From NCBI RefSeq assembly GCF_900102015.1, contig NZ_FNAT01000008.1, positions 62,001 to 126,000 on the forward strand: a DNA stretch of 64,000 nt. The letters are read 5' to 3'. Within the stretch, counting starts at the first letter, position 1; every line of letters begins with the position of its first letter. Source of the stretch: Limimaricola pyoseonensis (lineage in GTDB: Bacteria; Pseudomonadota; Alphaproteobacteria; Rhodobacterales; Rhodobacteraceae). Shown piece by piece: positions 22,212-64,000 of this stretch. The position numbers were made by a program, and so were the translations under genes. The notes beneath the pieces were generated by a model. It did not search any database. It was given only the letters and a program-made list of their open reading frames with translations, and was not told the DNA's origin.

Positions 22212-22257
22212 GTTTTCGCCAGTGTCCGTTTAACCAGTGCCGGTTTCACCAGTGACC
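22212..22257 (+). repeat. Three short tandem imperfect repeats before a sulfotransferase gene
   Basis: Three consecutive copies of a 14-16 base unit of the form GTTT(N)CCAGTG(N)CC lie at 22212-22227, 22228-22241 and 22242-22257. They end 3 bases before the chosen start codon. They could be a regulator binding array or replication slippage. Confidence 0.5.
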
Positions 22258-29559: not shown

Positions 29560-29593
29560 GAGGGGCCCGCGACCTTGCGGTCGCGGGCCCCTC
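29560..29593. terminator. Perfect 15-bp stem with tetraloop, bidirectional terminator
   Basis: Fully paired 15-bp arms enclose the loop TTGC (GCAA, a GNRA-type loop, on the minus-strand transcript). It overlaps the stop codon of the ExoQ-like gene and serves the converging G8/RTX gene as well. Confidence 0.75.
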
Positions 29594-30830
29594 AGCGTTT
29601 CAGCGGGTGCTTCGAGGCGTAGACCGCGCCGATCCAGATCAGCATATGCGCCAGCACGAAGGGGCGGGTCAGCTCGCTCTCGACCATGGCGCGGATCAGC
29701 TCGACCATCGTCACCACCATCAGGAAGACGAAGGGCATGCCGCCGCGCCGCACCAGCTGCGCCAGCAGCCGCCCGACCGCCCAGACCAGCATCAGGACCG
29801 TCAGCCCGATGCCGACCAGCCCGTGATGCACGCCGATCTCGTAGAAGGAGTTGTGGAAGGAGAAGACCTGCTTGGGGCTCTTGTGGAACTCCTCGAAGAT
29901 GCGGCGGACCAGCTCGTTCTCCTCGTAGCGCCAGAAGCCGCGCGCGCCGTGCCCGGCGACGGGGCGCTGCGCGATGACGTCGCCGGCATAGGCCCAGAGC
30001 TCGGTGCGGCCGGTCAGCGTGGTGCTCTTGCCGAGCGCGCCGAGCAGCAGCTCGAAGGGCGACAGCGCGGTCAGCGCCAGCCCGGTGGCGATCGCGCCGG
30101 TCAGCAGCCCCGCCAGGATCAGCCCCAGCGCCAGCCGGTCCGGCGGCGCGTCGGCGCCGCGGCCCCACAGGAAGACGAAGCCCATCACCAGCCCCAGCAC
30201 CAGCACCGCCAGCACCAGCGCCGTGGCCGACTGGCTGGCCAGGATGAGCATCAGCGCCAGCCCCGCCAGCGCCGCCGCCAGCAGCCGCAGCCACAGCCGC
30301 ACCCAGCCGTCGAGCGCGACGCAGAGCGCCGCGGTCCACAACAGCAGCATCTTGGCGCCCAGCATGTTCTTGTGGGCGAAGATGCCGGTCATCGCGCCGT
30401 CGTGGTAGCTGGTGATGAACAGGCTCAGCACGCCGGCGAAGCCGGTGGCGGCGAGCGCGGTGAGCAGCACCTCGCGCGGGCTCATCCACGCCGCGATCAG
30501 CACCGAGATCACCACGGTGAGCTGCATCTGCACCGCCCCGCGCAGCGCCTCGGCCGGCACCACCGCCAGCGGCGCGGTGAACATCGCCCAGACCGGCAGC
30601 AGCGCCAGCGGCCAGCAGCGCAGCAGCAGCGGCAGCGTGACATGGCGGTCGCGCAGCGTCGCCACGGTGAAGTAGAGCGCCAGCGGGTAGAGCAGCAGCT
30701 CGTCGTTGCGAAACACCGTGAAGGTGACGATGAACCACAACAGCACCAGCCCGCGCTCGACCCGTTGCAGCCGCGCGAGGCCGGGGCGCGGCGCGGCCAG
30801 CGGCAGATGCGGCGAGAGCGAAACCGTCAT
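29592..30830 (-). CDS. ExoQ-like / O-antigen ligase family polysaccharide polymerase
   Basis: This 412-residue inner-membrane protein has about ten to twelve hydrophobic helices. It carries the ExoQ/Wzy signature G-I-F-A-H-K-N-M-L-G-A-K. The large periplasmic loop contains G-R-T-E-L-W, G-H-G-A-R-G-F-W and H-N-S-F-Y-E-I-G-V-H-H-G-L-V-G-I-G-L, typical of the Wzy_C domain. It would join lipid-linked repeat units into the polymer at the periplasmic face. ATG 30830 overlaps the stop of the GMC gene by one base (TGATG). Ligase activity cannot be excluded, but the exo-type neighbours favour polymerase. Confidence 0.88.
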   Translation of the reverse strand: MTVSLSPHLPLAAPRPGLARLQRVERGLVLLWFIVTFTVFRNDELLLYPLALYFTVATLRDRHVTLPLLLRCWPLALLPVWAMFTAPLAVVPAEALRGAVQMQLTVVISVLIAAWMSPREVLLTALAATGFAGVLSLFITSYHDGAMTGIFAHKNMLGAKMLLLWTAALCVALDGWVRLWLRLLAAALAGLALMLILASQSATALVLAVLVLGLVMGFVFLWGRGADAPPDRLALGLILAGLLTGAIATGLALTALSPFELLLGALGKSTTLTGRTELWAYAGDVIAQRPVAGHGARGFWRYEENELVRRIFEEFHKSPKQVFSFHNSFYEIGVHHGLVGIGLTVLMLVWAVGRLLAQLVRRGGMPFVFLMVVTMVELIRAMVESELTRPFVLAHMLIWIGAVYASKHPLKR

Positions 30831-32552: not shown

Positions 32553-34259
32553 TCACGCGCCCGTCCCCTCGCCCAGAAGGCGCAGATCGTCCCATCCGAC
32601 CGGCACGATGCGCGGATCGCTCGTGGCGGCCAGCCAGCCGCGTTCGGCAAAAGCAGTGGTGCATCGCCCGTCCTCCATCTCCATCACGACCGGCAGGTAG
32701 GTGGCGCGGAACCGCTCCTGCCGCAGCATCTGCCGCACGCCGGTGGCGCCGGCCATGGCCGGCTCGGTCCAGCCGCGGCGCTGGCATTCGGCCTTGTGGT
32801 ACTGGGCGATCAGCTGCGGCGGATCGGTCCAGAACACGCCCGGGTCGAAGCTCGCATGGTTTCGCATCCCGGTCTTGATCGGCTTGGCATGGGCCATGGC
32901 GACCCAGTTCAGCCCCATCAGGTCGCGCATCTCGCCCTCGTAGGTCAGCGCGATGCCGCCGGCGGCCACGACGCCCAGCAGCGGCTGCGGCGAGAAACTG
33001 TTGAGGTAGCGGCCGAAGGCCTCGCCGCGCGCCGAGAGGCTGTATTCCCAGGCGATGCGGAACCGCTCCTGCCGGAAGGCGGCGGCGTTCATCGCCACCC
33101 AGCCGGCCGCGACCGCCAGCGCCAGCACCGGCAGCGCCCGGCGCGCGGCGGCAGGGGCCGGCCCGGCGAGCCAGCCCACCGCCAGCGCCAGCGGCATCAC
33201 CAGAAGCGGCATCGCCGGCTGGTAGAAGCGCCACATCGCGAAATGGTCGCCGCCGAGCATCACGTAGGTCGCGAGCAGGCCGAACAGCGCGGTGGCGCAA
33301 AGCACGAGGCTGCGCCGGCCCGGCGCGGCCGCCGCCGCCCGCCGGCCGCGCCACAGCGCCGCCACGGCCAGCGCCGCCAGCGCCAGCCAGGCCAGCACCA
33401 GCGCCTCGGCGAAGGGGTGGCCGAACAGGAAGCTCGCGAGGTACTTCGCGCCGTCGAAGGCGTTCTGCAGCCGGTCGGCCGAGACCTTGGCGTAATAGGT
33501 GTTGGGGAAGGGCTGGCCGAAATAGGCCAGCCGCCCGAGGGTGAGCACCGCCGCCGACAGGGGCGCGGCCAGCGCCGCGCCGGCCAGCCCGCGCCAGGCC
33601 AGCGGCCGCAGCGCCAGCGCGCCGAGCGCGAGGCCGGTCGCCACCGCCACCCCCTCGGGCCGGGTCAGCGGCAGCAGGAAGGCCGCCGCCAAGAGCGCCG
33701 GGTCGGGCCGGCGCGCCGGCTCGGGCGCCTCGAGCGCGGCGGTCAGCCGGTCGAGCAGCCACAGGATCAGCGCCGTCCACAGCGCGATCTCCATCATCGA
33801 CCAGACCGACCAGATGAAGAAGCCCGGCAGTCCCGCGAGCCCGATCAGCAGCCCCGCCGTCACCGCCGCCGGCGGCAGCCCGGCGCCGAGCCGGCGCGCG
33901 AGCCTGAGCGCCAGCGCCACGGCGATGACGCTGAGCGTGAAGCCCAAGCCCAGGATCAGCGGCTCGACCGGCAGGCCCGAGCGGTAGAGCGGCACCAGCG
34001 CCAGCGTCCACAGCAGCGAGGTCGCGCCCTCCACCCGTTCGCCGCCGACGTTGTAGACGAAGCCGTGCCCGGCGGCGATGTTCTGCGCGTAGGAGCGGGT
34101 GATCGCGGCATCGTCGATGCCGTTGGCGCCGGGCGAACCGGCCAGCGCGTAGGCCAGCGCCGCCATGACCGCCGTCGCGGCCAGCGCCAGGACCAGATCG
34201 AGCCGGGCGCGGCCGACCGAAAACACAGTATTTCCCATGGCGGGATCCGTACCGAACAT
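32553..34259 (-). CDS. AftB-like GT-C membrane glycosyltransferase (putative arabinofuranosyltransferase)
   Basis: This is a polytopic membrane protein of about 568 residues with a soluble periplasmic tail. After TM1 it carries an acidic pair (D49-D50 in N-G-I-D-D-A-A-I-T-R). N-I-A-A-G-H-G-F-V-Y-N and G-E-R-V-E-G-A-T-S-L-L-W-T follow, the order and wording typical of mycobacterial AftB and its relatives. A later loop has G-G-D-H-F-A-M-W-R-F-Y-Q-P-A-M-P, matching the family pattern GGDxMxxRxxxP. GT-C enzymes use polyprenyl-phosphate sugars; AftB uses decaprenyl-phospho-arabinose. The DprE1/DprE2/UbiA-like genes 20 kb away could make that donor. Start uncertain (34259 or 34238; both have weak ribosome sites). 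The specific sugar is inference. Confidence 0.75.
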   Translation of the reverse strand: MFGTDPAMGNTVFSVGRARLDLVLALAATAVMAALAYALAGSPGANGIDDAAITRSYAQNIAAGHGFVYNVGGERVEGATSLLWTLALVPLYRSGLPVEPLILGLGFTLSVIAVALALRLARRLGAGLPPAAVTAGLLIGLAGLPGFFIWSVWSMMEIALWTALILWLLDRLTAALEAPEPARRPDPALLAAAFLLPLTRPEGVAVATGLALGALALRPLAWRGLAGAALAAPLSAAVLTLGRLAYFGQPFPNTYYAKVSADRLQNAFDGAKYLASFLFGHPFAEALVLAWLALAALAVAALWRGRRAAAAAPGRRSLVLCATALFGLLATYVMLGGDHFAMWRFYQPAMPLLVMPLALAVGWLAGPAPAAARRALPVLALAVAAGWVAMNAAAFRQERFRIAWEYSLSARGEAFGRYLNSFSPQPLLGVVAAGGIALTYEGEMRDLMGLNWVAMAHAKPIKTGMRNHASFDPGVFWTDPPQLIAQYHKAECQRRGWTEPAMAGATGVRQMLRQERFRATYLPVVMEMEDGRCTTAFAERGWLAATSDPRIVPVGWDDLRLLGEGTGA

Positions 34260-42116: not shown

Positions 42117-43088
42117 ATGGCAGAATCCGGCGGCGCCGCGGGGCGCAGCGCCGCCCGTCGCTATCCCGATTTCATCATCGGCGGCGCGCCGAAATGCGGC
42201 ACGACCTCGCTGCATTTCATCCTCGATCAGCATCCGCAGATCGCCCTGCCGCATGACGAGGTGCATTTTTTCGACGCCGACGATCCGCTCGCCCATCCCG
42301 ATTTCCTGCACGTCGAGGGCGACCGGCTGCGCTGGTACGATCCGCGCCCGGACCCGGGCCAGAACCTCGACTGGTACGCCGATCGCTTCCCCTCGGGGGC
42401 CGCGATCCTGGGCGAGGATTCCACAACCTATCTGATGAGCGAGGTCGCCGCGACGCGGATCGCGGCGTTGCTGCCGCGGGTCAAGCTGATCTTCATGCTG
42501 CGCCACCCGGTCGACCGGGCCTATTCGCAGTATTGGCACCTGATGAAGACCTCGCGCGTCACCGTCGGCTTCGAGCAGGCGATCACGCGCTTTCCGCACA
42601 TCCTGATGGGCTCGAGCTACCTGTCGGGGCTGCGCCGCTTCCAGTCGGCGCTCGGGCCCGACCGGGTGATGGTGCTCTTGTTCGAGGAATTCCGCCGCGA
42701 CATGCAGGCCAGCCTCGACGCGGTCACCGGCTTTCTCGACGCCGCGCCGATCACGGTCGACCCCGAGCGCAGCTGGTTCAACCGCACCCGCTACCCGGCC
42801 AACCCGGCGCTGATGCGCCAGGCCAACCGGATCGGCCGGCACCTCGTGGCCGGGCGCTACCGGCGGCACATGGGCGGGCCGGCCGGGCTGGGCCGCCGGG
42901 TCGAGACCAAGCTGCATCACTGGTGGTTCGCCCATCTCAATCCCCGGCTGATGACCGCGCCGCGCCCGCCGGCGATGCGCGACGACACCCGCGCCTATCT
43001 CGAGCAGCACCTCTCGGCCCGCAATGCCGGGCTCTCGGCCCTGCTCGACCGCGATCTCGCCGCGCTGTGGCCCGGCATGCGCTGCTGA
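42117..43088 (+). CDS. Sulfotransferase (heparan N-sulfotransferase-like family)
   Basis: This protein has 323 residues from ATG 42117. The 5'-phosphosulfate loop is I-I-G-G-A-P-K-C-G-T-T-S-L. An acidic/His motif H-D-E-V-H-F-F-D follows, and the 3'-phosphate site is F-M-L-R-H-P-V-D-R-A-Y-S-Q-Y-W-H. The K-C-G-T-T-S/R-H-P...R-A-Y-S pattern and the H-x-E-x-H-F-F segment are those of heparan sulfate sulfotransferase-type enzymes (Sulfotransfer_1). Together with the PIG-L deacetylase in the cluster this recalls N-deacetylase/N-sulfotransferase chemistry. It precedes the co-polymerase gene by 62 bp. Confidence 0.88.
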   Translation: MAESGGAAGRSAARRYPDFIIGGAPKCGTTSLHFILDQHPQIALPHDEVHFFDADDPLAHPDFLHVEGDRLRWYDPRPDPGQNLDWYADRFPSGAAILGEDSTTYLMSEVAATRIAALLPRVKLIFMLRHPVDRAYSQYWHLMKTSRVTVGFEQAITRFPHILMGSSYLSGLRRFQSALGPDRVMVLLFEEFRRDMQASLDAVTGFLDAAPITVDPERSWFNRTRYPANPALMRQANRIGRHLVAGRYRRHMGGPAGLGRRVETKLHHWWFAHLNPRLMTAPRPPAMRDDTRAYLEQHLSARNAGLSALLDRDLAALWPGMRC

Positions 43089-43150
43089 CGGCGGCGCCCC
43101 TCAACCGGCCCGGGGCATGCGGCCCCGGCCACAGGACGGAGCTGGACGAC

Positions 43151-45445: not shown

Positions 45446-46743
45446 GCCGGTCGGCGCGGCGGCTCGGCCCGGTGCTGATGCCGGTGCTGGTCCCGGTTCT
45501 GGGGCCGGTTCTGGGGCTCATGCTCGGGCTCGCGCCCGCCGGGCCGCTGGCGGCGCAGGGCGCGGCCGAGCCGGTCGCGGCGACCGAGGCCGCCGAGTAC
45601 CAGCTCGGCCCCGAGGACGTGCTGGCGCTGCGGGTGGTGACCTGGGACGAGGCGCGCGCCAGCTACCAGCCGATGGAGGGTCTGGCCGGGGAGTACCGCG
45701 TCTCGGCCGGCGGTACGGTGTCGCTGCCGGTGGTCGGGCGGATCAGCGCCTCGGGGCTGACCCTGCAGGCGCTGAGCGAGGCGGTCTCCGCCGGGCTCAA
45801 GGCGCAGGCCGGCCTCTACCAGCCGCCGGTGGTCTCGCTCGAGATCGCCGCCTACCGGCCGTTCTACATCTCCGGCGACGTCACCGATCCGGGCGCCTAT
45901 GCCTGGCGGCCGCGGCTGACCGCGAGCAAGGCGCTGGCGCTGGCCGGCGGGCTCTACCGCAACGGCCGCGGCGGCGCCCAGGCCGAGGGCGAGCAGCTGC
46001 GCGAGATCAGCTCGCTGCGCAGCGTCCAGGTCGAGCTGGTGCGGCTCCTGGCGCGCGCGGCCCGGCTCGAGGCGGAGCTGGCCGATGCCGAGGCGATCAC
46101 CTTCCCGCCCGGCCTCAGCCACCCCGACGGCGCCGTGGCGGTCGAGCGGATCAAGGCCGAGGAGCGGGCGATCTTCGATCTGCGCGCCGAATCCTTCGCC
46201 CGGGCCGAGGCCTCGAGCGAGGCGCTGATCGCGCTGCACGAGACCGAGCTCGCCGGCCTGAACGGCAAGCTCGAGGGCCATGAGCGCCAGCTCGCGATCA
46301 TGCGCGAGCAGGTCGAGCGGCTGCGCGGGCTCGTCGAGCGCGGCACCGTGGTCGCCAACCGGCTGGTCGATGCCGAGCGCACCCTGACCGACCTCGCCGC
46401 CGAGGAGCTCGACTTCAACACCGCGATCTTCCGCGCCCGCCAGCGCATCGGCGAGACCGAGCGCGACCTGCTGCAGGCGCGCGACAACCGCGGCCGCGAG
46501 GTGCTGACCCAGCTGCAAGAGACCCGGCGCGGCATCGAGCTTGCGACCAAGCGCGAGGCGATGCTGATCGGGCTGGCCGCGGCCAGCGGCACCCGGCCGG
46601 TCGACCTGCCGGTGGTGACGGAGATGCGGGTGCGCCGCGCCGGCACGCGCGGCACCGAGGTGCTGAGCCTCGGTCCGGACGACCCGATCCTGCCGGGCGA
46701 CGTGCTGGAGATTTCCCAGACCCTGCCGATGATCGGCAACTGA
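45442..46743 (+). CDS. exoF: ExoF/Wza-like polysaccharide export protein
   Basis: This 433-residue periplasmic/outer-membrane export protein has an N-terminal signal with a repetitive hydrophobic core (V-L-M-P-V-L-V-P-V-L-G-P-V-L-G). The PES domain reads Y-Q-L-G-P-E-D-V-L-A-L-R-V...Y-R-V-S-A-G-G-T-V-S-L-P-V-V-G. An SLBB-like segment is F-Y-I-S-G-D-V-T-D-P-G-A-Y. Long coiled coils follow (about 190-360), then a second short beta domain ending G-D-V-L-E-I-S. The inserted coiled coil is the hallmark of ExoF rather than Wza. It is translationally coupled to the co-polymerase and followed by a strong terminator. Confidence 0.87.
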   Translation: MSRSARRLGPVLMPVLVPVLGPVLGLMLGLAPAGPLAAQGAAEPVAATEAAEYQLGPEDVLALRVVTWDEARASYQPMEGLAGEYRVSAGGTVSLPVVGRISASGLTLQALSEAVSAGLKAQAGLYQPPVVSLEIAAYRPFYISGDVTDPGAYAWRPRLTASKALALAGGLYRNGRGGAQAEGEQLREISSLRSVQVELVRLLARAARLEAELADAEAITFPPGLSHPDGAVAVERIKAEERAIFDLRAESFARAEASSEALIALHETELAGLNGKLEGHERQLAIMREQVERLRGLVERGTVVANRLVDAERTLTDLAAEELDFNTAIFRARQRIGETERDLLQARDNRGREVLTQLQETRRGIELATKREAMLIGLAAASGTRPVDLPVVTEMRVRRAGTRGTEVLSLGPDDPILPGDVLEISQTLPMIGN

Positions 46744-52340: not shown

Positions 52341-53024
52341 ATGGGGCATCTTTCTGCGACGACATCGGGCAAGGACTCGGATTTCGCGCCCCGGCACCGC
52401 CGCCGGGGCGCCTTGCGCTATGTCGAAATCCCGAAACGCGGCCTGGACCTGCTGCTCTGCCTGGTCCTGCTGCCGACCATCCTGCCGATCATCGCCTTCC
52501 TCTATCTCCTGGTGCGCCTCGATGGCGGGCCGGGCTTCTTCGGCCATCAGCGGATCGGCCGCGACGGCAGGCGCTTCCGCTGCTGGAAGATCCGCACCAT
52601 GGTGCCCGACGCGCAGGAGCGCCTCGCGGCGCTGCTGGCCGCCGACCCCGAGGCGCGCGCCGAGTGGCAGCGCGACCGCAAGCTGCGCCGGGACCCGCGC
52701 GTCACCCGTCTGGGCGGCTTCCTGCGGGCCAGCTCGCTCGACGAGCTGCCGCAGATCTGGAACGTGCTGCGCGGCGAGATGAGCCTGATCGGCCCGCGCC
52801 CGATCACCGCCGCCGAGCTGATGCGCTACGGCGCCGAGAAGGGCGTCTACCTCGCCCTGCGCCCCGGCATCACTGGCCTGTGGCAGGTCTCGGGCCGCAA
52901 CGACCTGAGCTACGACCAGCGGGTGCGGCTCGACGCCGAGTACCAGGCCCGGGTCTCGCTCGGCACCGATCTGCGGATCCTCTACCGCACCGCCGGCGCG
53001 GTGCTGATGCGCACCGGGCTGTGA
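52341..53024 (+). CDS. exoY: Undecaprenyl-phosphate sugar phosphotransferase (ExoY)
   Basis: This 227-residue monotopic initiating enzyme transfers a phosphosugar (galactose-1-phosphate in rhizobia) to undecaprenyl phosphate. The length equals Sinorhizobium ExoY. After the membrane re-entrant helix (L-D-L-L-L-C-L-V-L-L-P-T-I-L-P-I) come the family motifs F-G-H-Q-R-I-G-R-D-G, F-R-C-W-K-I-R-T-M, S-S-L-D-E-L-P-Q-I-W-N-V-L-R-G-E-M-S-L-I-G-P-R-P and G-I-T-G-L-W-Q-V-S-G-R. The ATG has only a weak ribosome site. It begins the plus-strand run into the DPA-like operon, 47 bp before the HAD-UbiA gene. Confidence 0.93.
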   Translation: MGHLSATTSGKDSDFAPRHRRRGALRYVEIPKRGLDLLLCLVLLPTILPIIAFLYLLVRLDGGPGFFGHQRIGRDGRRFRCWKIRTMVPDAQERLAALLAADPEARAEWQRDRKLRRDPRVTRLGGFLRASSLDELPQIWNVLRGEMSLIGPRPITAAELMRYGAEKGVYLALRPGITGLWQVSGRNDLSYDQRVRLDAEYQARVSLGTDLRILYRTAGAVLMRTGL

Positions 53025-53071: not shown

Positions 53072-54547
53072 ATGGACAACCGCCACGAGTTCCGCAGCGC
53101 CAGCGCCGCCACCCCGGCCGCCGTGCTGGTGGTCGATCTGGACGGCACGCTGATCCGCAGCGACATGCTGTACGAAAGCTTCTGGGCGGCGCTGTCGCGG
53201 CGCTGGACCTGCCTGTTCTCGGCGCTGGCGGCGCTGCGCGAGGGCCGCGCCCCGCTCAAGCGGCGGCTCGGTGCGCTCGGGCCGGTCGACCCGGCGCTGC
53301 TGCCCTACAACGACACTGTGCTCGACTACATCCGGCGCTGGCGCGCCGGCGGCGGCCGCGCGGTGCTGGTCTCGGCCGCCGACCAGCGGCTGGTCGAGCG
53401 GATCGCCGGCCACCTCGCGCTGTTCGACGAGGCGCATGGCTCGGACGGGGCGCAGAACCTCAAGGGCGGCCGCAAGGCGGCCTTCCTGACGCAGCGCTAC
53501 GGCGAAGGCGGCTTCGCCTATGTCGGCGACGCCGCGGCCGACCTGTCGGTCTGGCGCGTCGCGGGCCACGCCGTCACCGTCGATGCCGGGCCGGGGCTGT
53601 CGCGCCGGGTCGAGGCCGGAACCGGGACCGGCTCGGTCGAGCATCTGAGCACGCGTTCGGGGCGCGCCGCGCCGCTTCTGCGCGCGATGCGGCCGCATCA
53701 ATGGCTGAAGAACCTGCTGGTCTTCCTGCCGATGCTGGCCGCGCAGCAGTTCGACGCGGCCACCTTCGGCCAGAGCCTCCTGGCCTTCGTCGCCTTCAGC
53801 GTCATCGCCTCCTCGGTCTACCTGCTCAACGACCTGCTCGACCTCGCCGCCGACCGCGCCCATCCGCGCAAGCGCCACCGCCCCTTCGCCTCGGGCGCGC
53901 TGCCGCTGGCCTGGGGCACGGTGCTGGCGCCGGGGCTGGCGCTCACCGGCTTCGCGCTGGCCTTCGCGCTCGGGCCGGCCTTCGCGGCGGTGATGGTGCT
54001 CTATTACGGCTTCACCACCGCCTATTCCTTCCATCTCAAGCGCCGGCTGGTGGTCGACATCTGCACGCTGGCCGGGCTCTACACGCTGCGCATCATCGCC
54101 GGCGCCGTCGCCACCGGCATCCCGCTCTCGGTCTGGCTGCTGGCCTTCTCGATGTTCTTTTTCTTTGCGCTGGCGGCGATGAAGCGGCAGGCTGAGCTGG
54201 TGTCGGCGGCGCGGGCGGGCGGCCGGGCCGCGCATGGGCGCGACTACCGGGTGGACGACCTGCCGCTGATCGCCAACATGGCGGTCTCCTCGGGCTACAT
54301 CTCGGTGCTGGTCATGGCGCTCTATCTCAACACCGGTGCGGTGCAAGACCTCTACGCCTCGACCACCCCGCTCTGGGGCATCTGCCTCGTGCTGCTGTTC
54401 TGGATCAGCCGCATGGTGATGATCACCCATCGCGGCTGGATGGACGACGACCCGGTGGTCTTTGCCGCGCGCGACCGCGTCTCGCTGATCTGCGCGGCGC
54501 TGATCTTCGGCTGCGCGCTGGCCGGGGCGGCCGGGGCACTGGCATGA
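53072..54547 (+). CDS. HAD phosphatase-UbiA prenyltransferase fusion, putative polyprenyl-phosphate phosphoribosyltransferase
   Basis: This is a 491-residue two-domain protein. Residues about 15-200 form a HAD hydrolase (V-D-L-D-G-T with D22 and D24; later Y-V-G-D-A-A-A-D). Residues about 205-491 form a UbiA-type membrane domain with the motif N253-D254-x2-D257-x3-D261 followed by A-H-P-R-K-R-H-R-P, the wording of mycobacterial DPPR synthase (Rv3806c). That enzyme joins phosphoribose from PRPP to decaprenyl phosphate, and the product must then be dephosphorylated; the fused HAD domain could do this. The ATG follows CCGGAGG. It overlaps GtrA, which overlaps the DprE1-like gene. Function by family and context, not proven. 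Confidence 0.85.
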   Translation: MDNRHEFRSASAATPAAVLVVDLDGTLIRSDMLYESFWAALSRRWTCLFSALAALREGRAPLKRRLGALGPVDPALLPYNDTVLDYIRRWRAGGGRAVLVSAADQRLVERIAGHLALFDEAHGSDGAQNLKGGRKAAFLTQRYGEGGFAYVGDAAADLSVWRVAGHAVTVDAGPGLSRRVEAGTGTGSVEHLSTRSGRAAPLLRAMRPHQWLKNLLVFLPMLAAQQFDAATFGQSLLAFVAFSVIASSVYLLNDLLDLAADRAHPRKRHRPFASGALPLAWGTVLAPGLALTGFALAFALGPAFAAVMVLYYGFTTAYSFHLKRRLVVDICTLAGLYTLRIIAGAVATGIPLSVWLLAFSMFFFFALAAMKRQAELVSAARAGGRAAHGRDYRVDDLPLIANMAVSSGYISVLVMALYLNTGAVQDLYASTTPLWGICLVLLFWISRMVMITHRGWMDDDPVVFAARDRVSLICAALIFGCALAGAAGALA

Positions 54548-54588
54548 GCGCTGGCCTGAGCCCTGGCATGAGCGCCGGCCTGAGCCGC
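54541..54588 (+). repeat. 24-base tandem duplication at the GtrA start
   Basis: Two adjacent copies (54541-54564 and 54565-54588, differing at 3 positions) each carry an ATG in frame, giving M-S-A-G-L-S-P-G then M-S-A-G-L-S-R-T. It straddles the stop of the HAD-UbiA gene and provides alternative GtrA starts at 54544 and 54568. Confidence 0.8.
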
Positions 54589-55002
54589 ACCACGCTGGTG
54601 CTGCGCTATGCCGGCTTCGCGGTGCTCGCGACGCTGGCCAACCTCGCGGTGCAGCGGGCGGTGCTGGCGCTCGACGCCGGCCCGCGCGGCTTCATGGCCG
54701 CGGTCTTCTGCGGCACGCTCGCCGGGCTCGTGCTGAAATACCTGCTCGACAAGCGCTGGATCTTCGACGACCGCAGCCGGGGCGCCGCCGCGCATGGGCG
54801 GCGCTTCTCGCTCTACACCGCGATGGGCATCGTCACGACGGCGATCTTCTGGGCCAGCGAGACCGCCTTCTGGCTGGTCTGGCAGACCGACGCCATGCGC
54901 GAGCTGGGCGCGGTGCTGGGCCTGACGGTCGGTTACGTCGTCAAGTACCGGCTCGACCGGCGCTTCGTCTTCACCGGCAGCGCGAGTCCCCGCCCGGCAT
55001 GA
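54544..55002 (+). CDS. GtrA family membrane protein of the DPA-like operon
   Basis: This 152-residue protein has four predicted helices typical of GtrA (Y-A-G-F-A-V-L-A-T-L-A-N-L; D-K-R-W-I-F-D-D; V-K-Y-R-L-D-R-R-F-V-F). GtrA proteins are implicated in moving polyprenyl-phosphate sugars across the membrane or anchoring partner transferases. In mycobacteria a GtrA protein (Rv3789) is encoded directly before dprE1 and dprE2, the same order as here. Coupled by 4-bp overlaps to both neighbours. Confidence 0.87.
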   Translation: MSAGLSPGMSAGLSRTTLVLRYAGFAVLATLANLAVQRAVLALDAGPRGFMAAVFCGTLAGLVLKYLLDKRWIFDDRSRGAAAHGRRFSLYTAMGIVTTAIFWASETAFWLVWQTDAMRELGAVLGLTVGYVVKYRLDRRFVFTGSASPRPA

Positions 55003-56330
55003 GGCCCACCCGCGAACTTTCCGGCTGGGGCCGCTACCCGCGCCGGCCCGGCCCGGTCGCCGCCCCGCGCGACGCGGCCGAGGCGCGCGCCGCGCTGTCC
55101 GGCGGCGTGGTGGCGCGCGGCAACGGCCGCGCCTATGGCGACAGCGCCATGGGCGCCGCCCTCACCCTCGAGACGCGGCGCATGGACCGGATGCTCGCCT
55201 TCGACCCCGAACGCGGCCAGCTGGTGGCCGAGGCGGGCGTGCTGCTGGGCGACGTCATCGACGCCTTCCTGCCGCGCGGCTGGTTTCCCTTCGTCACGCC
55301 CGGCACCAAGTTCGTGACGCTGGGCGGCGCCATCGCCGCCGACGTGCATGGCAAGAACCACCACCGCGAGGGCGGCTTCGGCGCCTTCGTCGACTGGGTC
55401 GACCTGATGGGCCCGGACGGGCAGGTGACGCGCGCCAGCCGCGAGACCGCGCCCGACCTTTTCGCCTGGACGCTGGGCGGCATGGGGCTGACGGGGGTGA
55501 TCCTGCGCGCCGCGATCCGGCTGCGCCCGGTCGAGACCGGCTGGATCCGCCAGACCAGCATCATGGCCCCCGACCTCGCCGCCGCCATGGCCGCCTTCGA
55601 GGCGCATGACGCCGCGACCTACTCGGTCGCCTGGATCGACTGCCTCGCCCGCGGCCCGGCGCTCGGCCGCTCGATCCTGATGCTGGGCGAACATGCGCGC
55701 CGCGACGAGCTGCCCGTAGAGCAGCGCGAGCACCCCTTCGAGACGCCGCCGCGCCGGCGGCTGACCATGCCGCTCGACGCGCCGGCGCTGGCGCTGAACC
55801 GCTACGCCATGCGCGGCTTCAACGCGCTCTACTGGGCGCGCGGCCGGCGCGCCCCGCGCGAGACGCTGGTGGGCTGGGACGGCTATTTCTACCCGCTCGA
55901 CGCGGTGCTGGGCTGGAACCGCATCTACGGGCGGCGCGGCTTTCTGCAGTTCCAATGCGTGCTGCCGCCCGACCGCGCCGAGCAAGGCCTCGCCGCGCTT
56001 CTGGGCGAGACCGCGCGCACCGGGCAGGGCTCCTTCCTCGCGGTGCTCAAGCGGCTGGGGCCGGGGGCGGGGCGCTTCGCCTTCCCGATGCCGGGATGGA
56101 CGCTGGCGCTCGACTTCCCGGCCGGGCCGCGCAGCCTCGCGCTGCTCGACCGGCTCGACGCCATCACGCTGGCGCATGGCGGGCGGTTCTACCTTGCCAA
56201 GGACGCGCGGCTCGCGGCGGCGACGCTGCACGCCGCCGACCCGCGCGCCGCCCGCTTCCGCGACATGCGCCGGGCGGCCGGGCTCGACACCGCCTTCGCC
56301 TCGGCCCAATCCGAAAGGCTGCTGCTATGA
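54999..56330 (+). CDS. dprE1: DprE1-like polyprenyl-phospho-ribose 2'-oxidase (FAD)
   Basis: This 443-residue FAD-binding oxidoreductase has the flavin-site motifs A-R-G-N-G-R-A-Y-G-D-S-A-M-G and V-T-P-G-T-K-F-V-T-L-G-G-A-I-A-A-D-V-H-G-K-N-H-H (H117). They are nearly those of mycobacterial DprE1, which oxidises the 2'-OH of decaprenyl-phosphoryl-ribose. The C-terminal F-P-M-P-G-W-T-L-A-L-D-F-P segment aligns with the region of mycobacterial Cys387, the benzothiazinone target; here it is Ala370. Overlaps GtrA and the DprE2-like gene by 4 bp each. Confidence 0.88.
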   Translation: MRPTRELSGWGRYPRRPGPVAAPRDAAEARAALSGGVVARGNGRAYGDSAMGAALTLETRRMDRMLAFDPERGQLVAEAGVLLGDVIDAFLPRGWFPFVTPGTKFVTLGGAIAADVHGKNHHREGGFGAFVDWVDLMGPDGQVTRASRETAPDLFAWTLGGMGLTGVILRAAIRLRPVETGWIRQTSIMAPDLAAAMAAFEAHDAATYSVAWIDCLARGPALGRSILMLGEHARRDELPVEQREHPFETPPRRRLTMPLDAPALALNRYAMRGFNALYWARGRRAPRETLVGWDGYFYPLDAVLGWNRIYGRRGFLQFQCVLPPDRAEQGLAALLGETARTGQGSFLAVLKRLGPGAGRFAFPMPGWTLALDFPAGPRSLALLDRLDAITLAHGGRFYLAKDARLAAATLHAADPRAARFRDMRRAAGLDTAFASAQSERLLL

Positions 56331-57079
56331 CCGACCCAGACCCGACCCCGGCCCCCGTGCTGATCCTCGGCGGCCGCTCCGAGATCGGGCTGGCCATCGC
56401 CCGCCGCTTCGCCGCCGACCGCCACCCGGTGGTACTGGCCGCGCGCGACGCGGCCGGGCTCGAGGCCGATCGCGCCGACATCGCGCTGCGCCACGGGGTC
56501 GAGGTCAGGCTCGCCGAGTACGACGCGCTCGACCTCGAGGCGCTGCCAGGCTTCGTGGCGGCGCAACAGCCGCCGCCCGGCATCGTCGTGTCGGTGGTCG
56601 GGCTGATGGGCGAACAGGCCGAGAGCGAGCGCGACCCGCAGGCCGCGGCACGGGTGATGCGCTCCAACTACGAGGGCCCGGCGCTGGCGCTGGGGCTCTT
56701 CGCCGAAGTCATGGCGCCGCGCGGAAAGGGCGCCATCGTCGGCGTCAGCTCGGTCGCCGGCGATCGCGGCCGCGCCTCGAACTACGTCTACGGCTCGGCC
56801 AAGGCCGGCTTCACCGCCTTCCTGTCGGGGCTGCGCAACCGCCTCTCCGACAGCGGCCTGCGCGTCGTCACCGTCAAGCCCGGCTTCGTCGCGACCCGGA
56901 TGACCGAAGGCATGGACCTGCCCGCCCGCCTCACCGCCGCGCCGGCGGAGGTGGCCGAGGCGGTGGTGCGCGCGGTGCGCGGCGGGCCGGAGGTGGTCTA
57001 TGTCCGGCCCATCTGGGGGCTGGTGATGCGCGCGATCCGCGGGCTGCCCGAGCCGATGTTCAAGCGCACCCGGCTTTAA
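56327..57079 (+). CDS. dprE2: DprE2-like short-chain dehydrogenase (keto-ribose to arabinose reduction)
   Basis: This 250-residue SDR has the cofactor loop L-I-L-G-G-R-S-E-I-G-L-A-I-A-R (a G-G-R-S-E-I-G variant as in DprE2). The catalytic Ser is in V-G-V-S-S-V-A-G-D-R-G-R, and Y-x3-K is in Y-V-Y-G-S-A-K-A. A hydrophobic C-terminal segment (V-Y-V-R-P-I-W-G-L-V-M-R-A-I) resembles mycobacterial DprE2. It would reduce the 2'-keto lipid sugar to polyprenyl-phospho-arabinose with NAD(P)H. Its stop overlaps that of the convergent flippase gene. Confidence 0.85.
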   Translation: MTDPDPTPAPVLILGGRSEIGLAIARRFAADRHPVVLAARDAAGLEADRADIALRHGVEVRLAEYDALDLEALPGFVAAQQPPPGIVVSVVGLMGEQAESERDPQAAARVMRSNYEGPALALGLFAEVMAPRGKGAIVGVSSVAGDRGRASNYVYGSAKAGFTAFLSGLRNRLSDSGLRVVTVKPGFVATRMTEGMDLPARLTAAPAEVAEAVVRAVRGGPEVVYVRPIWGLVMRAIRGLPEPMFKRTRL

Positions 57080-58542
57080 TGCGCGGCGCGCGGCTTCTGC
57101 AGCCAGGCGATGTCTGACTTCAGCGCCCGGCGGTTCAGCGCGGCGCAAAGCGCCACCGCCGCCGCGCCGCCCAGCACCACCACCGCCGTCGCCGCCACCG
57201 CGCTGCCGATCCCCGGCAGCACCGCCACCCGCAGCAGCAGCCCCACGCCGAGGCCGCACAGCGCCGGGCCCAGCAGCGGCTCGGCCGCCTGCCAGTTGGT
57301 CAGCGGCACGCAGCGGCCGAGAAAGCCCCAGTAGCGCGGCAGGTAGGCCAGCGCGAAGGCGCTGCGCAGCGCGATCGCGAGGCCGAGCCCCAGCGGCAGC
57401 GCCAGCAGGAACAGCCCGCCGCCGATCACCAGCCGCTCGATCGCGCTTTGCAGCCTGAGCCCGGTGCGGTCGGCCACCATGAAGACCCGCGCCCCGAGCG
57501 AGGCCAGCGCCTCGATCGCGAAGGCCGGCGCGGCCAGCGCGAAGAGCGGCGCCGCCGCGCCCCAGGGCTCCGACAACAGCACGGTGAAGACCGGCACGCC
57601 GTTCAGCGCCAGCACCGCGAAGCCCGGCAGCAGCAGCGTCGCCAGCACCCGGCTGGCCGCGCGCCAGCTGCGGCTGACCCCGGCGGGGCCTTCCTCGCCA
57701 TGCCATTGCCGGGCCATCGTCACCATCGCCACCTGCGACAGCGGCCCGGCCAGCCCCATGCGCGGCAGCCGCGCCACCCGCTCGGCCATCGACCACAGCG
57801 ACACCGCCGCCGCGCCGGGCCCGGCGCCGAGCGCCAGCACCGGCACCTGCGTCTGCAGCGTCTGCACCCCCGAAAACAGCAGCGTGTTGCGGCCGAACAG
57901 CAGGTGCGGGCGCAGGAGCGGCCAGCGCAGCACCCATTGCGGCCGGAAGCCCGAGAGCAGCGCGAAGCCGCCCAGCTTGACGCCCGCCAGCACCACCTGC
58001 TGCCAGACCAGCGCCCAGTAGCCGAAGCCCGCCAGCGCCAGACCCAGCGCCGTCGCCACCCCGGCGAGCCCGGCCGCGACGCCGATCGCGGCCACGGGGC
58101 GGAACCGCCCGGCGCGCTCCAGCGCCGCCTGCTGGGTCGACATCGCCGACTGCATCAGCGGCACCGTCGCCAGGAGCAGCATCACCGCCACCAGCTGCGG
58201 CTGGCCCATCGCCCGCGCGTAGAGCGGCGCGATCGCCGCCACCACCAGCGCCAGCGCGAGGCCGAGCGCGGCGAGGAACCAGAACACGCTGCTCCATTCC
58301 TCGGCGTTGAAGCCGCCGGTGCGGATCAGCGAACGGCCCATGCCGGCATCGCTGAAGGCGTTGGCGAAGAGCGGCACCGCCATGCCGAGCGCGACGATGG
58401 CGAAATCCTCGACGCTGAGCAGCCGCGCCAGGATCGGCAGGCTCGCCGCCTGCAAGAGGATCATCGCGCCGCGCGCGACCACCAGCAGCCGCACATCGGC
58501 GAAGAAGCGGCCCGGCCGGGCCGGCGTGACCGCGCCGCTCAT
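57076..58542 (-). CDS. Wzx-type oligosaccharide flippase
   Basis: This 488-residue MOP-superfamily transporter has about 12-14 helices. N-terminal features are V-A-R-G-A-M-I-L-L-Q-A-A-S-L-P-I-L-A-R-L-L and D-A-G-M-G-R-S-L-I-R, as in lipopolysaccharide/EPS flippases (ExoT/WzxC-like). It would turn the undecaprenyl-linked repeat unit to the periplasm for the ExoQ-like polymerase. ATG 58542 overlaps the acyltransferase stop by 4 bp. Confidence 0.87.
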   Translation of the reverse strand: MSGAVTPARPGRFFADVRLLVVARGAMILLQAASLPILARLLSVEDFAIVALGMAVPLFANAFSDAGMGRSLIRTGGFNAEEWSSVFWFLAALGLALALVVAAIAPLYARAMGQPQLVAVMLLLATVPLMQSAMSTQQAALERAGRFRPVAAIGVAAGLAGVATALGLALAGFGYWALVWQQVVLAGVKLGGFALLSGFRPQWVLRWPLLRPHLLFGRNTLLFSGVQTLQTQVPVLALGAGPGAAAVSLWSMAERVARLPRMGLAGPLSQVAMVTMARQWHGEEGPAGVSRSWRAASRVLATLLLPGFAVLALNGVPVFTVLLSEPWGAAAPLFALAAPAFAIEALASLGARVFMVADRTGLRLQSAIERLVIGGGLFLLALPLGLGLAIALRSAFALAYLPRYWGFLGRCVPLTNWQAAEPLLGPALCGLGVGLLLRVAVLPGIGSAVAATAVVVLGGAAAVALCAALNRRALKSDIAWLQKPRAAH

Positions 58543-61506: not shown

Positions 61507-62898
61507 TCAGCTGGCGGCCGCGGCGGCCAGACCGCGCGCGGAAGGGGCGGCGGGCCGGCGGACCGGCCGGTCGGCAAGGTCGCGGGCCAGCATCTCGGCC
61601 ATGCGGTTGCCGTCGCGCACCGCGTAGTTGGTGCCGCGATCCATCGGGTAGATCTGCGAGAAGTTGCACAGGATCACGCCCGGGCAGGGCGTCTCGTGGT
61701 CGAGCAGCTTGTTCTCGGCAAAGCCCAGATCGACGATGTGCTGGGCGTTGCGGAGCCGGAACAGCGCGTCGTCCACCACCTCGCCGCGGTCGAACTCGGG
61801 GAACATCTCGTGGATCTGGTCGTACCAGAGCGACTTCAGATCCGGGTCCGGGGTGGTGGCATAGGCGTGCTCTGGCGGCACGTAGGCGCCGATATAGTAG
61901 ATGTTGAGCCCGTCGAAGCGCTCGGCGCCGACGAGGTTGGTCAGGCTCAGGAACACCACGAAGGGCGCGTCGGGCGTGTTGACGTTGTGCCAGTAGAAGC
62001 GGGTGAACTTCTGCCTGGAGGCGAAGACATGCACCACCGCGTCGAGGTAGTCGATGCTGCGCAGCCGGGCGAAGTAGTCTGGGTCGCGCGGCTCGGAGGT
62101 GGCGATCATCTTCGCGGCGACGCCGCTCGGCACCGTCAGGAGCACCCGGTCGAAGCGGCGCGCGCCCCCGGGCAGGTCGAGCACGACCTCGTCGGTCTCG
62201 GCGTCATGGGTGATGCCGCCCACGGGGGTCTTGAGCAGGACCTCGGTGCCCGCGGCGCGCACGGGTTCCTCCAGCGCGCGGATCAGCGTGTTGAAGCCGC
62301 CCTCGAAATAACCCAGCGCCTCGCCGCCCAGCTCGGGGTCGCGGCTGTCGACCCGCTGCAGGATCCGGCCCCAGAGCCATGACATGGTGACGCGGTCGTA
62401 ATACTTGTCGAACTTGCCGCGCAGCAGCGGCTCCCAGATCACGTCGCAGACCCGGCGGCCGGCATGGCGGCGCAGCCAGTCGAGCGCGGTGACGTTCTCG
62501 AAGCGCTTCCAGTCCTTGGTGCGCTGCAGCCACAGCACGCTGAGCCCGGCGCGGATCCGGTCGACGAACTTCAGCGGCGTGAAGCGGATCAGGTCGAGCG
62601 GCCCCTCCATCGGCCAGAGCTTGCCGTCGTAATAGGTCGAGACCGAGGATTTGTGGTAGCGCAGCTTGTCCTTCAGCCCCAGCTCGTCGACGAGGCCGAG
62701 GATGTGCTCGTCGGTGCGGTAGAGGAAGTGATAGGCCTGCTCGACCCGGTGCCCGGCGAGGTCGAAGCCCGCGGCGAGGCCGCCCAGCCGGTCGCCGGCC
62801 TCGATCAGCGTCACCTCGGCGCCGCTCTCGCGCAGCCGGTAGGCGGTGGTGAGACCGGTGATGCCGCCGCCGACGATGGCGATGCGAGCGCCCTGCAT
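61507..62898 (-). CDS. FAD-dependent oxidoreductase (amine-oxidase / UDP-galactopyranose-mutase-like)
   Basis: This protein has 463 residues from ATG 62898, which has AAGGAG 6 bases upstream (ATGs at 62928 and 62913 are alternatives). The Rossmann start is I-A-I-V-G-G-G-I-T-G-L-T-T-A-Y-R-L, followed by I-E-A-G-D-R-L-G-G-L-A and H-R-V-E-Q-A-Y-H-F-L-Y. The C-terminal FAD contact is in D-R-G-T-N-Y-A-V-R-D-G. The overall family includes protoporphyrinogen oxidase-like and mutase-like enzymes. In this context a sugar oxidation, desaturation or ring-contraction step is possible, but no reaction can be named. Confidence 0.8.
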   Translation of the reverse strand: MQGARIAIVGGGITGLTTAYRLRESGAEVTLIEAGDRLGGLAAGFDLAGHRVEQAYHFLYRTDEHILGLVDELGLKDKLRYHKSSVSTYYDGKLWPMEGPLDLIRFTPLKFVDRIRAGLSVLWLQRTKDWKRFENVTALDWLRRHAGRRVCDVIWEPLLRGKFDKYYDRVTMSWLWGRILQRVDSRDPELGGEALGYFEGGFNTLIRALEEPVRAAGTEVLLKTPVGGITHDAETDEVVLDLPGGARRFDRVLLTVPSGVAAKMIATSEPRDPDYFARLRSIDYLDAVVHVFASRQKFTRFYWHNVNTPDAPFVVFLSLTNLVGAERFDGLNIYYIGAYVPPEHAYATTPDPDLKSLWYDQIHEMFPEFDRGEVVDDALFRLRNAQHIVDLGFAENKLLDHETPCPGVILCNFSQIYPMDRGTNYAVRDGNRMAEMLARDLADRPVRRPAAPSARGLAAAAAS

Positions 62899-62924
62899 GT
62901 CCTGCTCCTTCATGCCCGCCCCGT

Positions 62925-63374
62925 TCATGCCCGGCCCCCGACACGGCGGAAGGTGATGTTGGCGTTGAGCAGGTACTGGATCGCGAAGACCACCGGCAGC
63001 GAGACGAACTTGCCGAGATTGGCCCCGAGCCCGGCCGCGGCGCAGGCGGCGATCACCGCGTAGCCGGCGATGTAGCCGATGGTGCAGACCACGACGAAGC
63101 TCATCAGCCGCAGCGCGATGAAATCATGGGTGCGGAAATTGTGGCGGGCGTTGATGGTGAAGCTCAGGAGCACCGCCGTCGGCACCGCCACCGAATGCGC
63201 GAAGAGCGCGCTGGTGCCGGCGATGTTGAACAGCACCAGGAAGATCGCGAGATCGGTGGCCGAGGCCAGCCCGCCGATGAACAGGTAGTTCACCAGGTGC
63301 CGGTGCCGGCCGTAGAGCGCGCGCAGACCCGGCGGCGTCGCGGCGCCGGTCCGATCGAGTTGGGATTGGAACAT
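62925..63374 (-). CDS. GtrA family membrane protein
   Basis: This protein has 149 residues and four helices: Y-L-F-I-G-G-L-A-S-A-T-D-L-A-I-F, V-L-L-S-F-T-I-N-A-R-H-N-F-R and a C-terminal F-A-I-Q-Y-L-L-N-A-N-I-T-F-R-R. ATG 63374 follows GAGAGGGG. It lies 18 bp downstream of a GT2-GtrA fusion, suggesting a lipid-phosphate-sugar synthesis and translocation pair separate from the DPA-like operon. Confidence 0.87.
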   Translation of the reverse strand: MFQSQLDRTGAATPPGLRALYGRHRHLVNYLFIGGLASATDLAIFLVLFNIAGTSALFAHSVAVPTAVLLSFTINARHNFRTHDFIALRLMSFVVVCTIGYIAGYAVIAACAAAGLGANLGKFVSLPVVFAIQYLLNANITFRRVGGRA

Positions 63375-63392
63375 GAGGACCCCTCTCACTGA

Positions 63393-64000
63393 TTAACCCG
63401 TGGCCTCGCCGGCCCGCGCCGCCCGGCGCTGCGCGAGCCGCAGCCCGGTGCGCAGGGAGCGGCGGTCGCGGCCCCAGATGAAGGCCTGCGTGGCGACGAA
63501 ATTCCACACCACCGTGATCAGCGCGCCAGCCACGGAGACGAGGCTGAGCTGCAGATCGGCGAATTGCGCGTGCATCATCGAGGCGACCGAGACATTGGCC
63601 AGCACCCCGACCGAGCACAGCAGCGCGAAGGCGGCGAAGCCGCGCCAGAAGGCGCCGCCGGTCAGCTGCCGGTCGCGATAGGTGAGCGCGTTGTTGACGC
63701 TGAAGTTGAAGAACATCGCCACCAGCGTCGCGCCGAGCTGCGCGGCGGCAAAGCCCGTGCCCCCCAGCGCCAGAAGCGGCATCAGCACCGCCAGATGCAC
63801 GAGGATGCCGACCGCGTTGATCATCGCGAAGGACAGAAACCGCGCCGGCAGCGGCACGTAGCGGCCGATCCGCTTCTCGATCAGAAACAGCGCGAAGTCC
63901 CACAGCACCCGGTTGTCGAGCTTGGAATCGCCATGCGCGCGCGGCCGGAACCGGAACGGTACCTCCATCAGGCGCGGCGGCTCGGGCGCGGCGGTGACGA
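63393..64000 (-). CDS. Polyprenyl-phosphate sugar synthase (DPM1-like GT2) with C-terminal GtrA domain, 3' part
   Basis: The frame is open to the window edge, so the catalytic N-terminal domain is missing. The visible part begins with the end of a DPM1-type GT2 domain (E-V-P-F-R-F-R-P-R-A-H-G-D-S-K-L-D), a segment characteristic of dolichol-/polyprenyl-phosphate hexose synthases. A four-helix GtrA-like domain follows, with F-N-F-S-V-N-N-A-L-T-Y-R-D-R and a second W-N-F-V-A-T-Q-A-F-I-W-G-R-D. The protein would load a hexose onto polyprenyl phosphate for GT-C enzymes. Confidence 0.87.
   Translation of the reverse strand, partial: VTAAPEPPRLMEVPFRFRPRAHGDSKLDNRVLWDFALFLIEKRIGRYVPLPARFLSFAMINAVGILVHLAVLMPLLALGGTGFAAAQLGATLVAMFFNFSVNNALTYRDRQLTGGAFWRGFAAFALLCSVGVLANVSVASMMHAQFADLQLSLVSVAGALITVVWNFVATQAFIWGRDRRSLRTGLRLAQRRAARAGEATG

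Follow-up and report, generated by a model that had tools for sequence, protein, structure and literature searches.

Within the glycans of bacteria, D-arabinofuranose (D-Araf) is usually regarded as a mycobacterial mark. What, then, is the role of four genes resembling those of the mycobacterial D-Araf donor pathway at positions 53072-57079 (all on the + strand) of a 64,000-nucleotide stretch of the Limimaricola pyoseonensis genome (hereafter the window), where they lie in an exopolysaccharide (EPS) cluster? In our best reading, to which we assign a probability of about 0.6, the locus encodes enzymes that attach D-Araf side chains to a Wzx/Wzy exopolysaccharide, the transferase being an AftB-like membrane protein of the GT-C type. 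The genome comprises 3.9 Mb in 20 contigs, and the named closest relatives of the window genes are mostly from Rhodobacterales.

A four-gene operon for a predicted lipid-linked pentofuranose donor

The operon contains, in order, genes for a HAD-UbiA fusion, a GtrA protein, DprE1 and DprE2 (Table 1). Each of its three junctions is a 4-bp ATGA overlap, and all four genes are open, closely packed and intact in their active-site motifs. These gene types and overlaps had been proposed from the letters and open reading frames alone (the sequence-only reading), and the gene coordinates, with profile and PDB matches far above chance, bear them out. The same reading placed the operon directly after exoY; the exoY/wbaP gene is indeed adjacent, but its end and the start of the HAD-UbiA gene are separated by a 47-nt gap and do not overlap. 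At the other end, a wzx-type gene on the opposite strand converges on dprE2 with a 4-bp overlap. A scan for promoters and terminators returned nothing above chance level.

The whole length of the HAD-UbiA protein is covered by NF006088/PRK08238 ('UbiA family prenyltransferase'), with 622 bits (cut-off 351). Its HAD domain (PF12710, 31.9 bits, cut-off 27), absent from the sequence-only reading, has a DLDGTL motif plus further HAD-like motifs, and Asp22 stands, by motif and without an alignment, in the place of the nucleophile D18 of Citrobacter youngae ORF15. The UbiA half reached 176 bits with the best of the decaprenyl-phosphate phosphoribosyltransferase models (curated cut-off 207), and its sole PDB matches at E 0.001 were two sequences of decaprenylphosphoryl-5-phosphoribose (DPPR) synthase, with E-values of 5.5e-37 (8j8j) and 3.7e-28. 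Haem O synthase (30.5 bits) and ubiquinone (4-hydroxybenzoate) prenyltransferase (22.2 bits) were ruled out as identities of this domain by comparison with those 176 bits, which leaves its earlier assignment standing. Both UbiA-type motifs, NDxxDxxxD and R..E, are present (N253, D254, D257, D261, R372, E375) and spaced as N247, D248, D251, D255, R366 and E369 of ORF15; in PMC11127046, these ORF15 residues were mutated, and the R366A and E369A variants were still active. From its sequence, the fusion is predicted to be a polyprenyl-phosphate phosphoribosyltransferase joined to a 5-phosphatase, the latter not of the mycobacterial type.

The GtrA protein is predicted to be a flippase, or a flippase helper, for the lipid-linked pentose. 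In a PDB search with DprE1, nine solved DprE1 sequences (4aut among them) lead the list, after which the matches drop off to E=6.5e-7, and the best match of DprE2 is a solved DprE2 (21gq_C, E=8.2e-34), followed by another reductase at E=4.8e-18. A generic oxidase and a generic reductase were ruled out by these rankings, and the kinship with DprE1 and DprE2, as opposed to unrelated oxidases, held up. DprE2 passes the cut-off of PRK07102 (267 bits) and has a YGSAK motif at 155, and DprE1 Lys401 aligns with Lys425 of 4aut. A rapid tree built from 115 DprE1 rows, and rooted for drawing only, pairs the window protein (SH-aLRT 99) with the closest DprE1 found, a plasmid copy of Salipiger sp. CCB-MM3 with 71% identity; the pair is nested in a 31-row clade (SH-aLRT 95, with mixed support inside it) that includes NoeH of the rhizobial noe operon described below.

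DprE1 has alanine at position 370 (56106-56108), replacing Cys394 of 4aut, the cysteine attacked by benzothiazinone drugs; by eye, NoeH of Rhizobium sp. IRBG74 also has alanine there. Covalent benzothiazinone binding is therefore not expected for such DprE1s.

An AftB-like GT-C protein as candidate transferase

The sequence-only reading had described the pathway as complete, which is so for donor synthesis but not for its use, since the four-gene operon contains no transferase. Our candidate for this step is a 557-aa GT-C protein in the EPS cluster of the operon, whose first hydrophobic stretch is followed by a DD motif. At E 0.001 it matched nothing in Pfam or NCBIfam and, as a single query, it had no PDB match at E 1. 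A profile built from 12 GT-C relatives (A1), when compared with the PDB, had AftB (9dlf, E=1.1e-13) as its only significant match, the next having E=0.15. At all seven AftB residues checked (D61, D62, T91, E172, R221, T274, R372) the profile carries the identical letter, the window counterparts being D38, D39, T69, E146, R189, T243 and R333. The columns of D38, D39, R189, T243 and R333 are invariant in 12 of 12 rows and that of T69 nearly so, and the E146 column holds Glu in nine rows and Asp in three. In PMC12041299, to which 9dlf was linked through agreeing residue numbers, D62, T91, E172, R221, T274 and R372 are catalytic or donor-contacting; D61 is not among them. A control profile from seven related GT-Cs (A3) likewise matched AftB alone (E=4.6e-16; one member singly, E=0.00094). 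In the window's own genome, nothing apart from the window protein matched the GT-C profile at E 0.001.

Co-occurrence of the GT-C and the donor pathway in Rhodobacteraceae

We surveyed 394 Rhodobacteraceae genomes from 393 genera, using cut-offs of E 1e-40 for DprE1 and HAD-UbiA, 1e-10 for the GT-C and 1e-30 for the A3 profile; the genome searches scored few first-look candidates per genome, so all counts are lower bounds. DprE1 was found in at least 139 genomes, HAD-UbiA in 151 and the GT-C in 12. DprE1 is present in all 12 GT-C genomes but in only 127 of the 382 others (p=2.7e-6), and HAD-UbiA in all 12 compared with 139 of 382 (p=7.6e-6), these and the following being Fisher p-values that treat genomes as independent and ignore phylogeny. 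With the window's own genome left out, DprE1 was present in 11 of 11 GT-C genomes (p=8.1e-6), and with only the nine strong GT-C matches, in 9 of 9 (p=7.1e-5). As a control, the Wzy polymerase encoded two places from the GT-C gave 17 of 46 genomes with DprE1 versus 122 of 348 without the polymerase (p=0.46). Six of the nine genomes with strong polymerase matches, own genome included, have the GT-C, DprE1 and HAD-UbiA together, and the remaining three (G225, G234, G264) have none of these at the cut-offs. The A3 profile was positive in 19 genomes, all with DprE1 (120 of 375 others, p=1.1e-9), among them seven that the GT-C search had not found (7 of 7, p=4e-4), the rows of A3 having been drawn from genomes and plasmids already chosen through the window GT-C. 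We regard the GT-C/DprE1 co-occurrence figures as strong but not exact. Among seven other genomes of the genus, neither DprE1 (E 1e-40) nor the GT-C (E 1e-10) was found in any.

At E 1e-40, HAD-UbiA occurs without DprE1 in 22 of the 394 genomes and DprE1 without HAD-UbiA in 10; some Rhodobacteraceae may therefore make other pentofuranoses or have their gene sets split.

Gene neighbourhoods in relatives

We inspected 40 stretches hand-picked from GT-C-positive, high-scoring or near-complete genomes. DprE1 was present in 31, of which 19 have the window gene set in the same order and 12 a divergent set, a ratio that reflects this choice and is no survey. In one of the 19 (L148) an extra piece separates GtrA and DprE1. 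Two (L150, L154) have HAD-UbiA and GtrA genes, overlapping by 4 bp, and then the GT-C gene on the same strand in an apparent operon, with no DprE1 alongside; in two others (L151, L152) the GT-C gene shares the strand of the four-gene block, some 4 kb upstream of it, and a wzx-type gene separates the two. In L167, genes for a G8-domain protein, the polymerase, a GMC oxidoreductase and the GT-C are ordered as in the window, and the four-gene block lies about 280 kb from the GT-C gene on the same contig. In Salipiger sp. CCB-MM3, the operon and the GT-C gene occur together in one plasmid EPS region that also holds exopolysaccharide transport genes, GH16 and sulfotransferases. In Cereibacter the operon is likewise plasmid-borne, but the plasmid gave no match to the window GT-C.

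All four genes matched in order in 19 of 78 named DprE1 loci (L006-L020, L022, L026, L030, L032), many of these loci being shorter than the requested 10-kb flanks. A tblastn search with the window GT-C at E 1e-8 matched none of the 78.

Two Leisingera plasmids (L173, L176, L177, L179) carry an EPS cluster of similar annotation with GT-C, UbiA and GtrA genes. The UbiA gene of NJS204 includes the HAD domain, and that of M527 is assigned by annotation only.

Comparison with characterised systems

The nearest characterised relative that we found is the noeCNHOP operon of Rhizobium sp. IRBG74, which has the same order UbiA-GtrA-DprE1-DprE2, with identities of 58% (277 aa), 52% (134 aa), 57% (440 aa) and 58% (240 aa), respectively. 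Its record (NC_022536, locus L168; Agrobacterium pusense plasmid IRBL74_p, BN877 tags) places the operon near nodA, nodB and nodC and annotates, in order, UbiA, GtrA, an FAD oxidoreductase, a short-chain dehydrogenase/reductase and, in the place of NoeP, a hypothetical protein. The two operons differ in that noe ends in NoeP whereas dprE2 in the window is followed by wzx on the other strand, in that IRBG74 NoeC lacks a HAD domain, both as annotated and in frame upstream, and in the acceptor, which for noe is a lipochitooligosaccharide rather than the EPS proposed here. A NoeP-like transferase was not found by blastp (E 0.01) or phmmer (E 10) among the nine window proteins given, a search that did not extend to the rest of the genome. 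According to PMC5080398, deletion of noeP abolishes Nod-factor arabinosylation in the IRBG74 strain and deletion of noeN lowers it, and the noeN product is proposed to be a phosphatase. By its place in the gene order, however, noeN is the GtrA gene: the gene in that position (7579-8001 of L168) carries a GtrA annotation and shares 52% identity with GtrA of the window.

A second comparison is provided by Citrobacter youngae O1/O2. For side-chain ribofuranose there, Kelly et al. 2024 (PMC11127046) demonstrated the HAD-UbiA synthase together with a GT136 transferase of the GT-C type and predicted a flippase of the MATE family. The same paper reports that the epimerase alone decides between ribose and xylose, that the xylofuranose (Xylf) of O2 is made with a different epimerase, and that DprE1/DprE2 homologues occur in loci of Araf-containing glycans; lipid-linked Araf outside mycobacteria is therefore already known in kind. 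Shared with the window are the HAD domain at the UbiA N-terminus and, as predicted for the window, a lipid-linked pentofuranose, an epimerase that sets the sugar and a periplasmic GT-C. Citrobacter differs in using a MATE flippase, GT136 and an O antigen, where the window has GtrA, an AftB-like GT-C and a Wzx/Wzy EPS. The three component types (synthase, flippase and GT-C) lie in one EPS cluster of the window, the GT-C 19 kb off and with GtrA in the place of MATE.

With the mycobacterial decaprenyl-phospho-arabinose (DPA) pathway, the window shares the same predicted synthase and epimerase-pair chemistry and a GT-C related to AftB. The phosphatase of mycobacteria is of the Rv3807c type, as opposed to the fused HAD of the window and of Citrobacter ORF15, and a decaprenyl lipid is not expected in a typical Gram-negative bacterium (PMC11127046). 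The description "mycobacterial-style" in the sequence-only reading is thus apt only in part: the rhizobial noe operon is nearer, and a HAD domain fused to UbiA takes the place of the mycobacterial phosphatase.

A proposed mechanism and its alternatives

The identities of the enzyme families, the membership of GtrA and of the AftB-like GT-C in theirs, the conserved residues and the linkage of the genes can be read from the sequence itself. In the mechanism that we propose, the operon would yield a polyprenyl-phosphate D-Araf donor. The HAD domain would strip the 5-phosphate from lipid-linked phosphoribose; DprE1 would oxidise C2 and DprE2 reduce it with inversion, converting ribofuranose to arabinofuranose; GtrA would help the donor reach the periplasmic side; and the GT-C would there transfer D-Araf onto the polymer as side groups. 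Judged from sequence, the donor is very probably polyprenyl-phosphate D-Araf. The GT-C is predicted to be the transferase that uses it, probably so because AftB is its sole PDB match, the AftB residues are kept, it co-occurs with DprE1 and it neighbours HAD-UbiA and GtrA in relatives. The acceptor is likely the Wzx/Wzy exopolysaccharide of this cluster; genes for Wzx, Wzy, Wzc, Wza and ExoY lie around the operon. For the substrates, the use of D-Araf by the GT-C and the acceptor, we infer rather than observe, and the placement of D-Araf on a secreted polysaccharide, which the sequence-only reading had likewise inferred, now has better support.

Several observations weigh against this system as a whole. 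The GT-C gene, although in the EPS cluster of the operon, is 19 kb away on the other strand. Because related GT-Cs also match AftB, likeness to AftB marks a subfamily and is no proof of the donor. Both the independence assumed by the p-values and the choice of the A3 rows, given above, temper the co-occurrence, and in two genomes (G070, G292) the only DprE1 found belongs to the divergent set and lies at another genomic site. A 12-row GT-C family profile found five ORFs in just three of the 78 named loci: L030 and L034, where they stand beside the DPA genes, and L021, where the distance to DprE1 is about 5 kb (best E-values 1e-27, 2e-15 and 2e-30, respectively). In 120 of the 139 DprE1 genomes there was no AftB-like profile match at E 1e-30; other transferases must therefore exist, and one could exist here. 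On the two Leisingera plasmids, the replicons that were searched, no DprE1 match was found anywhere, so the GT-C may accept ribofuranose; by analogy with Citrobacter O1/O2, these clusters may add ribofuranose instead. Lastly, the DPPR synthase part, DprE1 (cut-off 500 bits for NF053785) and DprE2 (cut-off 250 for NF053786) all fall under their curated NCBIfam cut-offs. We therefore do not file them as NCBIfam equivalogs and treat them as divergent relatives that would work like their namesakes; IRBG74 NoeH is also under the DprE1 cut-off (401 bits of 500), which was passed by 0 of 394 Rhodobacteraceae genomes.

If the donor is as proposed but D-Araf goes to lipopolysaccharide, a glycoprotein or a pilus, the position in the EPS cluster would reflect a shared genomic island. 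In relatives, 10 of 12 stretches with the divergent DprE1/DprE2 set also contain the Tad pilus gene CpaB (see below), so other surface structures too may be supplied by the pathway, and PMC11127046 cites Araf as a proposed donor for the type IV pilin of Pseudomonas aeruginosa; yet here the operon follows exoY and meets wzx, and the closest DprE1, that of CCB-MM3, is also in an EPS region together with a GT-C relative, and we consider this acceptor shift unlikely. We think it similarly improbable that the GT-C moves another lipid-linked sugar, with the Araf transferase encoded outside the window. Such a division of labour would fit the lack of an AftB-like match in most DprE1 genomes, the failure of NoeP to match the GT-C by blastp or phmmer, the two further GtrA genes at 62925-63968 and the GT-C of the Leisingera plasmids, but not the strict co-occurrence, the AftB residues or the same-strand HAD-UbiA and GtrA neighbours of the GT-C in two relatives.

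Were DprE1 and DprE2 to have drifted in function, the product could be another pentofuranose, with ribose kept or a different epimer made, as their scores under the NCBIfam cut-offs and the Xylf made by a different epimerase in Citrobacter O2 (PMC11127046) would allow. This is very unlikely given that NoeH and NoeO, 57-58% identical to them, come from an operon in which mutations abolish or reduce the arabinose of Nod factors (PMC5080398), and that NoeH falls under the same DprE1 cut-off. That the island is decayed or not expressed is the least probable of the alternatives, and hardly credible for four open, packed genes with intact active-site motifs, even if its DprE1 and GT-C, found in none of the seven other genomes of the genus, make the cluster look dispensable. 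The donor pathway of the proposed D-Araf side-chain system is known in kind. In the open-licence literature, we found no report of a clade of AftB-like transferases placed in EPS loci and linked to DprE1 in Rhodobacteraceae, nor of D-Araf in the exopolysaccharide or Tad pili of this family.

A broader proposal, which we hold tentatively and with somewhat more doubt than conviction, is that about one-third of the sampled Rhodobacteraceae genera have the D-Araf donor pathway and that the unnamed AftB-like GT-C clade, here found only in such genomes, decorates exopolysaccharides with D-Araf, or with D-ribofuranose where DprE1/DprE2 are missing. Arabinosylation of the mycobacterial type might then be a common, modular surface decoration and perhaps the stock from which rhizobial Nod-factor arabinosylation genes came. 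If operon and AftB-like transferase are indeed paired in EPS loci, D-Araf would be a far wider surface sugar than assumed, simpler organisms would become available for studying DprE1/DprE2 and AftB-type chemistry, the Nod-factor arabinosylation genes could be better placed, and a GT-C clade without a family name would gain a testable function.

A divergent DprE1-DprE2 set and other features of the window

A second, divergent DprE1-DprE2 set lies at one chromosomal place in 12 of the inspected stretches (L138, L140, L142-L144, L146, L147, L149, L153, L155, L157, L163). Its DprE1 is about 38-47% identical to that of the window, and all 12 copies group in a single clade (SH-aLRT 100). The 12 loci include topA (9), a gene for an LPG_synthase_TM protein (11), HAD-UbiA on the other strand (9), CpaB/RcpC (10) and the pilus secretin CpaC (8), the Pfam names of these neighbours being taken from L142 and L143. 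From this arrangement, Tad pili or what lies around them may carry D-Araf.

Table 1. Coordinates of the operon, the candidate transferase and the EPS genes in the window.
Feature	Position	Strand	Supporting matches
HAD phosphatase-UbiA phosphoribosyltransferase fusion, 491 aa	53072..54547	+	NF006088, PF12710 + PF01040, 8j8j
GtrA-family membrane protein, 152 aa	54544..55002	+	PF04138 43 bits, NF037976 176 bits (cut-off 50)
DprE1-like FAD oxidase, 443 aa	54999..56330	+	NF053785 389 bits, 4aut E=6.4e-80
DprE2-like short-chain reductase, 250 aa	56327..57079	+	NF053786 201 bits, PRK07102 312 bits, 21gq_C
AftB-like GT-C membrane protein, 557 aa, candidate pentofuranosyl (D-Araf) transferase	32553..34226	-	family profile vs AftB 9dlf
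WbaP/ExoY-type undecaprenyl-phosphate sugar-phosphate transferase, predicted starter of EPS repeat unit	52341..53024	+	PF02397 (Bac_transf) 193 bits
Wzx-type repeat-unit flippase	57076..58542	-	PF13440 177 bits
Wzy-type polymerase or O-antigen-ligase-like protein	29592..30830	-	PF04932 50 bits
Wzc-like EPS export protein	43067-45445	+	PF02706
Wza-like EPS export protein	45442-46743	+	PF02563

The EPS cluster also encodes a 1179-aa protein (25962-29501) with G8, CEMIP beta-helix, laminin-G-like and RTX repeat regions; L167 has a relative at the same place (64%), and a G8-domain protein occurs in the Leisingera clusters. Between 22252 and 43088 there are sulfotransferase-family genes at 22252, 37449 and 42117, and a PIG-L deacetylase and formyltransferase pair lies at 35735-37452. 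Together, the predicted sulfotransferases, deacetylase and formyltransferase point to a polymer that is sulfated and contains an N-formylated sugar. Near the window end (61507-63968), an amine-oxidase-like gene stands beside the two further GtrA-domain genes, perhaps as another lipid-linked sugar export module.

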